The position numbers and the translations under genes were made by a program. Positions 29,033 through 54,654 of a stretch of 64,000 nt of DNA are shown one piece after another; position 1 is the stretch's first letter; every line of letters starts with the position of its first letter. The notes below the pieces were generated by a model. It saw only the letters and a program-made list of their open reading frames with translations, was not told the DNA's origin and did no database searches. The DNA lies in NCBI RefSeq assembly GCF_000004075.3, contig NC_026655.2, positions 124,001 to 188,000 on the forward strand. The letters are read 5' to 3'. The DNA is from Cucumis sativus. Its lineage: Eukaryota; Streptophyta; Magnoliopsida; Cucurbitales; Cucurbitaceae.

Positions 29033-32249
<3,217 letters not shown>

Positions 32250-48131: not shown

Positions 48132-48140
48132 AAGATACTT
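48132..48140. repeat. Target-site duplication, left copy
   Basis: The 9-bp AAGATACTT is repeated exactly at 54646-54654, immediately outside both ends of the Mutator-like element. A 9-bp duplication is the hallmark of that superfamily. Confidence 0.93.
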
Positions 48141-48256
48141 GGGAAATTGACAAAAATAGGCCAAAAATGGGGTATAAATAGAGTTTTAGGATTGATTGTA
48201 GAAAAGTTGAGATTTAGGATAAATTGGAGGTGAAATGACGAAAATACCCTCTTTTA
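48141..48256 (+). repeat. Left terminal inverted repeat of the MULE
   Basis: 116 bp matching the reverse complement of 54530-54645 with about two or three mismatches; both run from the target duplication inward to 'aataccctctttta'. Confidence 0.95.
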
Positions 48257-48363
48257 ATTTTAATTCACATTTGCTCTTCTCTTCTTTTCCAACCCCTCTC
48301 TCTCTCTCTTCAATGTCATTCACCTGAAGAAAAAAAACAGAATTGCGAACGCAGCCTTCTTCT

Positions 48364-48490
48364 CCTCTCCTCATAGATTACGTAAAGGGAAAAAAAAAGA
48401 AGAATCCTTCTCTTGCAGTCTCATAGATTACGTAAAGAAAAAAGAAGCATTTCTCCTCCTTCTCATAGATTATGTAAAGGAAAAAGAAAA
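48364..48490 (+). repeat. Three short subterminal repeats in the MULE
   Basis: The block 'tcatagattacgtaaag' occurs at about 48371, 48421 and 48463 (the last with one base changed), each followed by an A/G-rich run and a CTTCTC stretch. They lie between the left repeat and the transposase and may be leader or subterminal sequence. Confidence 0.8.
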
Positions 48491-49078
48491 AAGAAAAACT
48501 CATTTGCGATTCTTCTCCTCTCTCAAAAGTTTGTCAACTTTCCGCTTTACTCCGGTGTCGTTCATCATCTACTCCGGCGAACATCTCACGCATTGTGGTT
48601 TGTTTTAATTTTTAAATCCGAATCTGAATTGTGTTGTGTTATATGTATATATATTTTTGCATCTTAAATGTATAAATCAAATATTATTTTTTATTGTTTC
48701 AAGTTGATTTAGGGTTGATTTAAGGTTGCTTTATAGATGTTTCAAATGATGTTAGCAATTTATCATTATTATTATTTTATCTCGCAAACATCTGGTAGAC
48801 ATCTCGCAAACATCTCGCAGACATCTTGCAGGTTCTTAAATTGAAATGTTTAATCTGAAATGAATTGATTTAGGGTGACTTTTAGCTATTGTTTTTTGTA
48901 TCTCGCAATATCCTAAACATTTTGTAGCTGTCAAGATCGTAAACATGTAGGGTGTGACTATGCACGTTTTATTTAGTATTTACCTACTGTTTTTTAATAA
49001 ACTTTGTTTATGTGATATGTCAAATGCTAACTTCAAATCATTTTTTGCAGCAATTGAAAAGTATAAGGTGGTTTAAGG

Positions 49079-50794
49079 ATGTCACATATTCCCATGTTAG
49101 TGCGTTACGGTGGTATGTGGGATGAGAGGCGAAGAAAATACGAAGGAGGCATGTTAAAAGGCATCGTTGTCAGTAAAGAAATAACACATAAAGATTTACA
49201 GGCAGAATTATATGACCTTGCAGAAGTTGACCCTTCAAAGTTCGACGTAATGATAAGATGCATATATGAGATAAAAGTGGAACACGAAGCTCCTACATTT
49301 GAGTTAAGCAATGACCGTGATTTGAAGTTTTATCTTCTTAGTGAAAATCCATTAAAGGTCCCTTTATACGTCTCATTTGAGCCTAAAAGTAATCAAAGCA
49401 AAAAAGTGTTAAGCAAAGATTACAATTCAGTATCTGGCAGCAACCAAGCTCATAACTTAAACCCTCATCCTCCAATTGTAATGGATACATTAAATGAGAA
49501 TGAAGTCCATGTTCGTGAAGTTGAAGTTGGCTTGTGTGATAACGTGATAGGGACCACTTCGGCTATATGGGAATCATATGAGTCATATGATTCGAAAGAT
49601 GAGACTTTTACATGGGAGCCAGTAGAGATGAATAGTGAATCATTTGACATCCCACAACATAGAGATGGTCCTACAAAAGATTGCAAAGGAAAATCTAAAG
49701 TTCGTTACAGCTCTTCTAGCCAAAAGTTGAAGACAGACATGAATGATTGGTCCGAAGAAAGCTCTACAAGTGAGGAGTTTGATGTAGGACAAATATTTTT
49801 TTCCAAAAAAGATTTGTCAATGAGATTAAGTGTCTTGGCAATGAAAAAAAATTTTCAGTTTGTAGTAAAAAAGTCTACAAAAGAGGTTCTCTTTGTTAGA
49901 TGCATTGACAACAAGTGTGGTTGGAGACTGCGAGCGATGAGATTGAAGGATTCAAATATATTTAAGATTAAAAAGTATGTCAAAGTTCATTCGTGTTCTC
50001 TTGACGTTTTGAATCGTGACCATAGGCAAGCAAAATCTTGGGTTGTTGGAGAATTAATAAAGTCAAAGTTCAAGGGAGTCGGTCGTCTATACAAACCGCG
50101 TGATATCATAGAAGACATGAGGCAAGACTATGGCATAAATATGAGTTATGAAAAAGCATGGCGCGCTAGAGAAAATGCGTATGAACGAGTGCGCGGGTGT
50201 CCTGAAGAGTCATATAATCTATTGCTTAGATATGGTGAAGCTCTCAAACTTGCAAATGTAGGTACAATATTTCACATGGAACTTGAAGATAATCGTTTCT
50301 TCAAATATCTTTTTATGGCTGTTGGTCCATGTGTTCGAGGATTCTTAAACTGCATTAGACCGGTTATAGTCATGGATGGAACATTCCTTAAGAACAAATA
50401 TCGGGGTCAGTTGATAGTTGCTGTTTGCTTGGATGGTAACAATCAAATTTATCCTCTTGCCTTTGGAGTGGTGGACAGAGAAACAGATGCTTCAATACAG
50501 TGGTTCTTAGAGAAATTGAAAGGTGCAATAGGAGAGGTGCCTAATCTAGGCTTCGTGACAGATCGAAAAACATGTTTTTCTAAGTGTATTGCATCGGTTT
50601 TTCCCTCCGCATTCCATGGACTTTGTGTCCAACACTTGACTCAAAATTTGAATGATAAATACAAGAATGACACTATAGCTACTTTGTTTTACAATGCATC
50701 TAGAACATACCCTGAAGACATTCTTAGATGCTCCTCCTCTTCAGGCATCATCTCAATTACCACGTTAATTAAGAACTACAAAGTGGAAATGTAG
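49079..50794 (+). CDS. MURA-type transposase of the MULE, 3'-truncated
   Basis: An open frame of 571 codons. Regions in order: an N-terminal PB1-like part (IPMLVRYGGMWDERRRKYEG to about residue 105); an acidic linker; a Mutator DNA-binding region (about 240-330: FFSKKDLSMRLSVLAMKKNF, VRCIDNKCGWRLRAMRLKDS, VKVHSCSLDV); then the DDE core with D433 in PVIVMDGTFLKNKYRG and D495 in FVTDRKTCFSKCI, followed by FHGLCVQHLTQNL. After about residue 540 the sequence leaves the family, and the third acidic residue and SWIM zinc finger are missing, so it should be catalytically dead. An acceptor-like TTTTTTGCAG at 49041-49050 suggests a leader intron before the start. The tail residues after SRTYPED run into sequence that, read on the other strand, fits the convergent gene. 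Confidence 0.93.
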   Translation: MSHIPMLVRYGGMWDERRRKYEGGMLKGIVVSKEITHKDLQAELYDLAEVDPSKFDVMIRCIYEIKVEHEAPTFELSNDRDLKFYLLSENPLKVPLYVSFEPKSNQSKKVLSKDYNSVSGSNQAHNLNPHPPIVMDTLNENEVHVREVEVGLCDNVIGTTSAIWESYESYDSKDETFTWEPVEMNSESFDIPQHRDGPTKDCKGKSKVRYSSSSQKLKTDMNDWSEESSTSEEFDVGQIFFSKKDLSMRLSVLAMKKNFQFVVKKSTKEVLFVRCIDNKCGWRLRAMRLKDSNIFKIKKYVKVHSCSLDVLNRDHRQAKSWVVGELIKSKFKGVGRLYKPRDIIEDMRQDYGINMSYEKAWRARENAYERVRGCPEESYNLLLRYGEALKLANVGTIFHMELEDNRFFKYLFMAVGPCVRGFLNCIRPVIVMDGTFLKNKYRGQLIVAVCLDGNNQIYPLAFGVVDRETDASIQWFLEKLKGAIGEVPNLGFVTDRKTCFSKCIASVFPSAFHGLCVQHLTQNLNDKYKNDTIATLFYNASRTYPEDILRCSSSSGIISITTLIKNYKVEM

Positions 50795-50860
50795 TTAGTT
50801 AGTCAAAACATAAAGGAACAAAGTCATGCATTCGGTAAGTTACTGTTTGTTGATACTTAC

Positions 50861-51805
50861 CATTGGTGAGTCAAACACCTGCCTCTGTAGGACATGAGAC
50901 TTCGGCGATAGTTCGCACACCCACCTCAGCATTCGTGGTATTGCATCGTTGCTTACTTTATGTACACCACATTCAGTGATGGTTGGTATAGACTCATATG
51001 CCCAAACCTATTCCATGTTCAACAAAACAAGTTTAGCAAGTGTCCCAAGATATATGTATATATAAATATGTGCATAGGAAGTAAAGTAACATACCTGTAA
51101 CGCCTGCGGAAATCCCATGACAGTATATTTTGTCTTAGTTGATTTATTCTTTCCCTTGGCATGTTGCATGTCCAAGGCTCGTTTTAAGGCAGAAAGTGTA
51201 CGTCCAAAAACCAACCCTCCCCAATCGTAATTGTTAAATGTGGTCCAATCATCTGCAATCCTAAATAAAGTTCGGTCCACTTTCGTCCGCCTATCTTTTC
51301 CTAACAATGACATCTCTATAAAGTAAACTAGAGCTAATTTAACTATGTCATCGTCATCGTCATCCCCCTCGTATTCCACAAATGTGTCCTCTAAGTCACT
51401 TATATAAATACACTTTTTTTGTTCGAAGAACTTCTCCAACAACCTACTATTCCCAACCAAATCAATAGGCTCTGGTTGAGAACTCCATAGACCCGTCATC
51501 ATATTAAATTCTCTCCTTCCAAAACTGCACACGACTTCTCCTATCTTGAAACTTATGTGATCAACCCTTTCATCTTCCACCTCTCTTAACAATAAGTAGT
51601 GGATGAGCGGCCCATTAAAGATTATATTCAGATCCAAAAAGTGGCCGAACTTTGTATTTCTAAATAAGGTTAATTGATCCGGTTTCAATTTAGCCTTTAT
51701 TGTACGTGTACTGTTTTCTAAATGTGCTAAACTACTTACTATAGACTGAAAATGATGAGCAGGGTCAATCTTGTACATGGGACCGTTAGTTGATGTCGAA
51801 GCCAT
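50861..51805 (-). CDS. DUF1985 protein of the MULE (Ulp1-type gene, protease part missing)
   Basis: Exon 1 is 51805-51095 and exon 2 is 51007-50861, joined in phase 0 (MGFPQALQ then VWAYESIPTI). The first 237 residues show the DUF1985 pattern: FRNTKFGHFLDLNIIFNGPL, IHYLLLREVEDE, VVCSFGRREFNMMTGLW, then LVYFIEMSLLGKDRR and NYDWGGLVFGRTLSALKRAL. Exon 2 gives IPRMLRWVCELSPKSHVLQR. A third piece may lie around 50815-50700 (VVIEMMPEEEEHLRMSSG). In related plant elements such genes continue into a Ulp1/SENP-type cysteine protease; that catalytic part is not in this window, so the copy is truncated. The acidic run (EGDDDDDD) is unremarkable. The 178-bp satellite array lies directly upstream, in its promoter position. 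Confidence 0.85.
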
Positions 51806-51884
51806 ACTGAGACCTGCATAAAAAAAAAAAACTAATTAAATATAATTGCATAAGAGACTTACTTAACATGGATGCACTAGCATC

Positions 51885-53743
51885 TTGGGACTTCTACTCA
51901 AAATTTTGGAAGGTGAGAGATAGGTGCTGATAGGTGAGAGATGATGAAAAACTTCAAGGCAAAGTTGCTAAGTCTAATAGAATTGCTAACCCTATAGCCT
52001 TAACACCTAGTAGACTAGCTAAACATGCATTCTAAACCGTTTAGGAAGTTTACACTCTTATATTGGGACTTCTACTCAAAATTTTGGAAGGTGAGAGATA
52101 GGTGCTGATAGGTGAGAGATGATGGAAAACTTCAAGGCAAAGTTGCTAAGTCTAATACAATTGCTAACCCTATAGCCTTAACACCTAGTAGACTAGCTAA
52201 ACATGCATTCTAAACCGTTTAGGAAGTTTACACTCTTATATTGGGACTTCTACTCAAAATTTTGGAAGGTGAGAGATAGGTGCTGATAGGTGAGAGATGA
52301 TGGAAAACTTCAAGGCAAAGTTGCTAAGTCTAATACAATTGCTAACCCTATAGCCTTAACACCTAGAAGACTAGCTAAACATGCATTCTAAACGGTTTAG
52401 GAAGTTAACACTCTTATATTGGGACTTCTACTCAAAATTTTGGAAGGTGAGAGATAGGTGCTGATAGGTGAGAGATGATGGAAAACTTCAAGGCAAAGTT
52501 GCTAAGTCTAATACAATTGCTAACCCTATAGCCTTAACACCTAGTAGACTAGCTAAACATGCATTCTAAACCGTTTAGGAAGTTTACACTCTTATATTGG
52601 GACTTCTACTCAAAATTTTGGAAGGTGAGAGATAGGTGCTGATAGGTGAGAGATGATGGAAAACTTCAAGGCAAAGTTGCTAAGTCTAATACAATTGCTA
52701 ACCCTATAGCCTTAACACCTAGTAGACTAGCTAAACATGCATTCTAAACCGTTTAGGAAGTTTACACTCTTATATTGGGACTTCTACTCAAAATTTTGGA
52801 AGGTGAGAGATAGGTGCTGATAGGTGAGAGATGATGGAAAACTTCAAGGCAAAGTTGCTAAGTCTAATACAATTGCTAACCCTATAGCCTTAACACCTAG
52901 AAGACTAGCTAAACATGCATTCTAAACGGTTTAGGAAGTTAACACTCTTATATTGGGACTTCTACTCAAAATTTTGGAAGGTGAGAGATAGGTGCTGATA
53001 GGTGAGAGATGATGGAAAACTTCAAGGCAAAGTTGCTAAGTCTAATACAATTGCTAACCCTATAGCCTTAACACCTAGTAGACTAGCTAAACATGCATTC
53101 TAAACCGTTTAGGAAGTTTACACTCTTATATTGGGACTTCTACTCAAAATTTTGGAAGGTGAGAGATAGGTGCTGATAGGTGAGAGATGATGGAAAACTT
53201 CAAGGCAAAGTTGCTAAGTCTAATACAATTGCTAACCCTATAGCCTTAACACCTAGTAGACTAGCTAAACATGCATTCTAAACCGTTTAGGAAGTTTACA
53301 CTCTTATATTGGGACTTCTACTCAAAATTTTGGAAGGTGAGAGATAGGTGCTGATAGGTGAGAGATGATGGAAAACTTCAAGGCAAAGTTGCTAAGTCTA
53401 ATACAATTGCTAACCCTATAGCCTTAACACCTAGTAGACTAGCTAAACATGCATTCTAAACGGTTTAGGAAGTTTACACTCTTATATTGGGACTTCTACT
53501 CAAAATTTTGGAAGGTGAGAGATAGGTGCTGATAGGTGAGAGATGATGGAAAACTTCAAGGCAAAGTTGCTAAGTCTAATACAATTGCTAACCCTATAGC
53601 CTTAACACCTAGTAGACTAGCTAAACATGCATTCTAAACGGTTTAGGAAGTTAACACTCTTATATTGGGACTTCTACTCAAAATTTTGGAAGGTGAGAGA
53701 TAGGTGCTGATAGGTGAGAGATGATGGAAAACTTCAAGGCAAA
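51885..53743. repeat. 178-bp tandem satellite inside the MULE, 10 full units plus 79 bp
   Basis: Units start at 51885, 52063, 52241, 52419, 52597, 52775, 52953, 53131, 53309, 53487 and 53665, exactly 178 bp apart; the last is cut at 'aaggcaaag'. Units begin 'ttgggacttctactcaaaat'. They differ at a few diagnostic sites: type A has 'cctagtagac', 'aaaccgttta' and 'gaagtttaca'; type B has 'cctagaagac', 'aaacggttta' and 'gaagttaaca'. The order is A A B A A B A A, then two A/B mixtures. Unit 1 alone has two extra changes. No open frame is conserved. Confidence 0.97.
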
Positions 53744-54529
53744 GGAAATGGTCTTTCAACAATGCAGCTTATGATAATGTCTTTAGAATACAATATTTAG
53801 AATGCATGTTTAGCACATATCTATTGTACTGGTAACTTTGCAGAGTTTATATGGGATACCAAATATATGTTCGAATTCAAGTTCTAAACTCCAAGGTATG
53901 GTTTTTCTATTATTACAGTACATTGCAAAGGAAATGGTTTTTCTTCCTAAAAACAGAATGGCTCCCACGGTTCTCTATGTCTGTGTGCATATGACATGCA
54001 TTTCTTCTCCAAAATGTGCCAAAAACAAAAAACTCACATCTTAACAGACAACTTAAACAAACAAGATGGAATACTGTAATAATAAATAAGCTACAACAGA
54101 CTAACTCTAAAAAAAAAACTGAGATTTTATTACTCACTTGACTTCAAAGATGATGGATACGGCACTGCCAATGTAGAGGAGTGGATAAGAAATGGAGAGG
54201 TCCGGTGAAAACAAACCTGAAATCGAAATGGATGGAAGTGGAGAAGCGTCCGCCGGAGATGAAGTCGAAATGGAGACCCGTGCAGAAGAAATGGAGACGT
54301 TCGGTGAACAAGTTGAAATCGGAAAATATAGCGGAGAGTCGTGAAGAAGAAATGGATGGAAGTGGAGAAGAAATGGACGGAAGAGAAAAACGTTCACCGG
54401 AGGCGGGAGAGAGTTGAAGAGGGTAACTGCAGACGCGGGAGAGTTCAAATGCGAGTTTACGTTTTTCTTTTGAACGGCCTTCTGTCTTCGGGTTGAAGAA
54501 AAGGAAAAAGAAGAAAAGAGGAAGGAAAA
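53744..54529. other. MULE interior right of the satellite
   Basis: Unique-looking sequence followed, from 54180 to 54470, by a purine-rich stretch with repeated 'gaaatgga' and 'agtggagaag' blocks. The long frames on both strands here come from that simple composition. It may be leader sequence of the minus-strand DUF1985 gene, which is transcribed inward from the right end. Confidence 0.5.
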
Positions 54530-54645
54530 TAAAAGAGGGTATTTTCGTCATTTCACCTCCAATTTATCCTAAATCTCAACTTTTCTACAATCAATCCTAA
54601 AACTCTATTTCTACCCCATTTTTGGCCTATTTTTGTCAATTCCCC
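54530..54645 (-). repeat. Right terminal inverted repeat of the MULE
   Basis: Inverted copy of 48141-48256; ends in CCCC directly before the second AAGATACTT. Confidence 0.95.
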
Positions 54646-54654
54646 AAGATACTT
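54646..54654. repeat. Target-site duplication, right copy
   Basis: AAGATACTT, identical to 48132-48140. Confidence 0.93.

Follow-up and report, generated by a model that had tools for sequence, protein, structure and literature searches.

Internal tandem repeats of DNA transposons and the cucumber element

Internal tandem repeats are already known in DNA transposons, including Tetris (PMC4079207), Cg_HINE (PMC7492417) and cucumber Mutator elements (PMC12395194). Tetris, from Drosophila virilis, carries internal tandem repeats of about 220 bp whose number varies, and unequal crossing-over was proposed for them; it is a foldback element with the repeats inside its terminal inverted repeats (TIRs), and kilobase-size satellite arrays exist outside it (PMC4079207). 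The Cg_HINE elements of the oyster likewise disperse short satellite-like arrays, with units mostly of 140 to 180 bp, but these are Helentrons, not MULEs, and some of their repeats are also classical satellites (PMC7492417). In the cucumber Tokiwa, Mutator and CACTA elements often hold internal tandem repeats and one Mutator-like element was drawn; as far as the accessible part of that report goes, the Mutator repeats are described without unit sequence, family, per-copy unit numbers or origin (PMC12395194). Elements of the KI-MULE / CUMULE type combine a MULE transposase with an Ulp1 protease domain in the opposite orientation, those of Arabidopsis (KI-MULEs) being described as non-TIR, and no mention of internal arrays was found in the accessible part of their description (PMC2528002). 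Finally, CsMULE, of 6,994 bp, sits in the second intron of CsMYB60, distally on chromosome 4, with a 9-bp duplication, TIRs of 117 and 115 bp and a MuRA-like transposase, and 9930 is listed as a carrier (PMC6305189). In the portions of the open-access literature that our search covered, no description was found of the particular 178-bp array reported here.

The window is the whole 64,000-bp stretch of cucumber DNA that was analysed (C1:124001-188000). It contains a 6,505-bp Mutator-like element (48141-54645) whose ends form inverted repeats of about 120 bp and which is bordered by a perfect 9-bp duplication of the target. Its features, in window coordinates, and two regions at a further copy discussed below are:

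48132-48140, no strand: left target-site duplication AAGATACTT (sequence; end placed by hand)
48141-48261, plus strand: left terminal inverted repeat (inverted-repeat match; end placed by hand)
48779-48905, plus strand: left subterminal short repeats with four ATCTCGCA (repeat finding and motif count)
49079-50794, plus strand: MULE transposase ORF, shortened by an internal deletion (Pfam MULE, 1.6e-20; DBD_Tnp_Mut, 6.6e-10)
51008-51805, minus strand: DUF1985 ORF, the 5' part of a DUF1985-Ulp1 gene (Pfam DUF1985, 8.8e-16)
51885-53744, no strand: tandem array of ten 178-bp units and an 80-bp partial unit (TRF and direct reading of units)
52241-52418, no strand: unit 3, type B (unit-by-unit reading)
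52775-52952, no strand: unit 6, type B (unit-by-unit reading)
53309-53664, no strand: units 9 and 10, A/B mixtures (unit-by-unit reading)
53784-53814, minus strand: relic, in inverted orientation, of the former array end; found in the young lineage only (comparison with older copies)
54526-54645, minus strand: right terminal inverted repeat (inverted-repeat match; end placed by hand)
54646-54654, no strand: right target-site duplication AAGATACTT (sequence)
C4:635900-636830 and 643760-644600: regions L075/L076 at the chromosome 4 copy, which has 2.44 units and lies beside a MYB-domain ORF

With the right end at 54645, AAGATACTT flanks the element on both sides (9/9), and the TIRs are 96% identical over 132 bp, flank included. 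The element thus has a MULE-type transposase, long TIRs and a target duplication which, at 9 bp, lies within the 8-11 bp of MULEs. Compared with the copy L015, the window copy lacks 4,074 bp (deletion junction 50710/50711); a 22-bp repeat at this junction, suggested by BLAST overlap, proved to be just 2 bp on inspection. The Ulp1 part is absent from the window copy and present in L015 (Peptidase_C48, 6.9e-26, minus strand), opposite to the transposase as in the KI-MULE / CUMULE type, although the TIRs of about 120 bp set the cucumber family apart from the Arabidopsis elements. A 734-aa transposase ORF with a SWIM finger was found in L009, and the SWIM part also in L015.

Perfect 9/9 target duplications were observed for the window element, nine fetched end pairs and the chromosome 4 copy. 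Nine of the ten distinct duplications of these copies end in TT and six in CTT, hinting at a target-site preference of the family. A hairpin beside the array, a 31-nt inverted match, was set aside: it equals the array end itself in the older copies L031, L032 and L034, compared with which the young lineage has this old array-end piece in inverted orientation. Outside the element, window positions 30514-31068 hold a 277-bp direct duplication with two copies 97% alike.

TRF reported the array with a period of 178, 10.4 copies, 99% matches and a score of 3643. About 80 bp separate its start from the downstream ATG of the DUF1985 ORF, and it lies about 900 bp from the right end of the element. Its claimed position within a MULE and 5' of the DUF1985 gene is supported. 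Read singly, units 2, 4, 5, 7 and 8 are of type A, unit 1 is A with two private changes (63A and 96G), and units 3 and 6 are of type B (127A, 154G and 167A); unit 9 has 154G only and unit 10 has 154G and 167A, after which the partial unit ends the array. This is the string that the sequence-only reading had given, A A B A A B A A and after these the mixtures of A and B. In the window copy alone, unit types agree at lag 3 in 5 of 7 cases (p = 0.015, unit order shuffled), which gives the A-A-B period in this copy modest statistical support. Site 154 may fall in a MYB3R-like AACGG core. The array was rejected as coding sequence: across six frames of four joined units there are 18-25 stops per frame, and the longest open stretch is 33 aa.

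The array family across the genome

The cucumber 9930 v3 assembly (226.6 Mb, 88 contigs) was searched with a 716-bp array query, giving 136 matches from 40 scored of 98 candidates, which were grouped into 40 loci. Sequence of the same MULE family adjoins the array in all 40 scored loci, as judged from fetched sequence (25), the right flank (4), adjacency to right-flank matches (10) or both junction patterns (1). The position of the array is constant in the family, about 80 bp upstream of the DUF1985(-Ulp1) gene in the window and fuller copies. Genome-wide there are 404 unit heads (42 nt, at most 3 mismatches), 268 of them within fetched MULE loci and many of the remainder at other MULE loci, while some units may lie outside MULEs; the left junction pattern occurs at 56 places and the young right junction at 38. 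Confinement of the unit to the window locus is excluded, since it is present at many loci. Long free-standing arrays, as expected of a classical satellite, were not seen at the 40 scored loci, all of which are in the element, and the longest array seen has 20 units (L029).

Several loci have an unusual arrangement. At L028 (C1:8000-17000), two halves of the element, each with an array, are arranged head to head, and their outer extremities share a perfect 9-bp duplication, which would fit either joint transposition of a composite or the insertion and rearrangement of a single element. L021 (C81) and L023 (C1:20.36 Mb) have the identical target duplication ATTCAACTT and similar arrays, and because of this they probably represent one insertion present twice in the assembly. 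L030 (C5:15490000-15493500) has two arrays in opposite orientation, facing each other, through inversion or double insertion. Equal piecewise scores with the array query were obtained for C5:8022388 and C5:8775755, and for C4:10049807 and C2:13816988, as if each pair were a recent duplicate.

One copy connects the family to a known allele. C4:636794-643788 is 6,995 bp long, has AAGAAACTT on both sides and 2.44 units, and adjoins a MYB-domain ORF (2.5e-9). Matched by size, place and features, it very probably corresponds to the insertion published as CsMULE in CsMYB60; the array family and CsMULE are alike in the 9-bp duplication, TIRs of about 120 bp, transposase, size and MYB neighbour, whereas the 2.44 units found here have no counterpart in the accessible part of the published description, which does not mention a tandem array (PMC6305189). 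Note that a table in the same paper gives five black-spined lines without the change and two black-spined lines with CsMULE. Because black-spined lines differ in carrying it, the insertion is polymorphic and the family has moved recently.

The number of units varies from 1 to 20 across the family, and from 2.44 to 15.44 at the 33 loci with both junctions, seven of which have 2.44 units. The array tails at these 33 loci measure 0.41-0.52 unit in 25 and 0.13-0.14 unit in 8. Among 14 young copies (the comparison omitted the 2.44-unit copies and L021, L023, L024, L026 and L028b, in which the left part of the array is missing), 36 of the 91 pairs are free of substitutions in the 823-bp right part, and in 32 of the 36 the two copies have different unit numbers. 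Whole-unit differences are also seen in the sizes taken by hand from the end coordinates of a subset of copies: three 2.44-unit copies are 9.16 kb each, and five others (10.03, 10.05, 10.39, 10.77 and 11.29 kb) match 9.16 kb plus extra units. Copies of 9.97 kb (C5:19.17 Mb), 9.36 kb (C3:39.18 Mb) and 8.75 kb (C6:13.73 Mb), together with three 2.44-unit copies, two of 7.87 kb and the one on chromosome 4 of 7.0 kb, are off this series; because their sizes do not fit 9.16 kb plus units, these copies, judged by length, must carry further deletions.

Origin and reworking of the array

Nineteen young arrays were read (the window, L009-L024, L026 and L028b), five of them without their left part. Fifteen of the 19 have a common end, consisting of A, A, 154G, 154G+167A and the partial unit; the string A' A B A opens nine of the arrays. 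The unit string of L012 is that of the window, L009, L010, L011 and L020 deviate in some units, and in L018 the common end is preceded by A B A B A B A B A A B A A. No constant multi-unit period runs through these arrays: the window and L012 show A-A-B, L018 shows dimers, and mixtures occur elsewhere. The A-A-B trimer is thus a state common by descent that is being reworked by conversion or exchange, and not a fixed higher-order repeat; its recurrence in other copies is likewise by descent, and therefore lends no independent support. Of the proposed history, amplification of a 534-bp trimer followed by unequal exchange, the exchange between units is borne out, while a single founding amplification of the trimer is possible without being required by so plastic a pattern, as L018 illustrates.

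The older members place these young arrays in a longer series. The right-flank tree is ladder-like, with L047-L049, which are 69-75% identical to the window, at one end and the young copies at the other; support is low among the latter. Older members have 1, 2, 3, 6-9 or 20 units, and in the single-unit copies the left flank continues unbroken into the unit. The unit measures about 155 bp in L044 and L046, 166 bp in L041 and 178 bp in the young lineage, and the added length sits around the AGGTGCGAGAT segment. The oldest copies, L047-L049, have broken units and other periods (145, 284), and because these periods differ, arrays may have formed more than once at the same place. Single-unit members are scattered over the tree and may therefore be contractions rather than the ancestral state. 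The units of one array diverge by 0.006-0.011 in the young copies and by 0.012-0.073 in the older copies, which is concerted evolution within arrays.

We put at about 85% the probability that the array is an internal tandem repeat, variable in length, that is native to a cucumber MULE family with a DUF1985-Ulp1 gene. The unbroken flank-unit junction of the single-unit copies and the differing unit lengths argue that the unit was made within the element, and the length of 178 bp appears to have arisen there by extension of shorter units, of about 155 and 166 bp. The sequence-only reading had left open whether the satellite was born or captured in a mobile element: birth agrees with this native piece and the shorter older units, and capture found no support.

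We infer the following order of events and route of expansion. A segment just 5' of the gene, of about 155 or 166 bp in some older members, would have been lengthened to 178 bp, and the lengthened segment would then have multiplied in tandem. Gene conversion or unequal exchange would have homogenised each array, producing the A/B patterns, A-A-B included. Transposing copies take the array along, and unit number shifts fast, by whole units, most likely through slippage, unequal recombination or gap repair after excision. The existence of the array can be explained in this way without any function.

Alternative readings and significance

That the array could nevertheless have a function is suggested by the persistence of repeats at one place across deep divergence. 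It might be a working cis-element kept by selection, either a promoter or enhancer, tunable by its length, for the DUF1985-Ulp1 gene, about 80 bp away on its 5' side, or a subterminal transposase-binding block. Short subterminal tandem repeats have precedent among MULEs (Muta1, PMC5225508). The motif ATCTCGCA occurs four times in the left subterminal region and nowhere else in the window on either strand, and its inverted form occurs twice in the units of L029 and L034; an equally repetitive shared 8-mer arose in 7 of 2000 simulations. The left region also matched the reverse-complemented units of L041 and L046 above all 200 shuffles in 5 of 8 tests, but with three other units shuffles attained the score in 11 of 12 tests, and the young, recently spread units have lost ATCTCGCA and read TGAGAGAT instead. 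We treat the shared motif as a lead and not as a result. Against maintenance stands the divergence of the unit, which tracks that of the flank with no sign of constraint: between lineages, unit and flank distances (unit consensus) were 0.037 and 0.037, 0.071 and 0.064, 0.082 and 0.091, and 0.123 and 0.128, in a comparison that omitted L047-L051 and also L030 and L045, the last two because their right-flank sequence was not extracted. Selection on the unit was rejected on this parallel. Moreover, because one-unit copies and seven 2.44-unit copies exist, a long array is unnecessary for spread. We consider a selected cis-element unlikely, and we hold equally doubtful its fuller version, a maintained length-tunable subterminal control region that shares with the left end its descent from one ancient inverted subterminal sequence (the mirrored ATCTCGCA), in which unit number would alter Ulp1-gene expression or transposition.

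The remaining alternatives are far less probable than these. A captured satellite, centromeric or other, or an array that seeded the 177-bp centromere satellite, is invited by length, at 178 versus 177 bp for CentCs (PMC11220175) and 534 bp for the trimer versus the 531-bp units of long cucumber arrays (PMC12395194, table 3). However, there are 404 unit heads against 4,292 CentCs copies reported in the same 9930 v3 assembly (PMC11220175), and the older members have units of about 155 and 166 bp. Two of the 56 left-junction loci do fall within the CENH3 regions given in table 3 of PMC11220175, a number that does not amount to enrichment (P = 0.19). The 177-bp repeat was not found in 26 samples, comprising 12 of unplaced contigs, four of CENH3 regions and 10 more. 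Near identity of the unit and CentCs, compared here by length and number and not by sequence, is hard to square with the copy numbers. The suggested link to centromeric satellites thus gained no support, and no satellite seeded by the MULE was seen in the assembly, from which most cucumber satellite DNA is absent (PMC6582320), so that very large arrays of the unit may lie outside it. We give this origin very little credence, and as little the idea that unit numbers and patterns are assembly artefacts. In L014, L016, L017, L022 and L028, scattered one-base indels do resemble long-read errors; the arrays, however, are of 0.4-3.6 kb and shorter than the reads (sub-read N50 10.8 kb; PMC6582320), and for the chromosome 4 copy the assembly gives 6,995 bp, where CsMULE has 6,994 bp in print (PMC6305189).

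A native internal repeat of the MULE family, the reading we prefer, also differs from the Tetris repeats, as the cucumber array is internal and one-sided and no array was seen outside the element. The case calls for caution before a repeat with a period near 178 bp is called centromeric. If the control-region reading were true, array length would be a dial on element activity. The MULE family offers a natural series for the formation and turnover of a satellite-like array within a mobile element, spanning near-identical copies that have between 2 and 15 units and older relatives in which the number goes from 1 to 20, at separate loci. The family very probably includes the CsMULE insertion allele of the fruit-spine colour gene CsMYB60, and array length could be tracked across cucumber lines.
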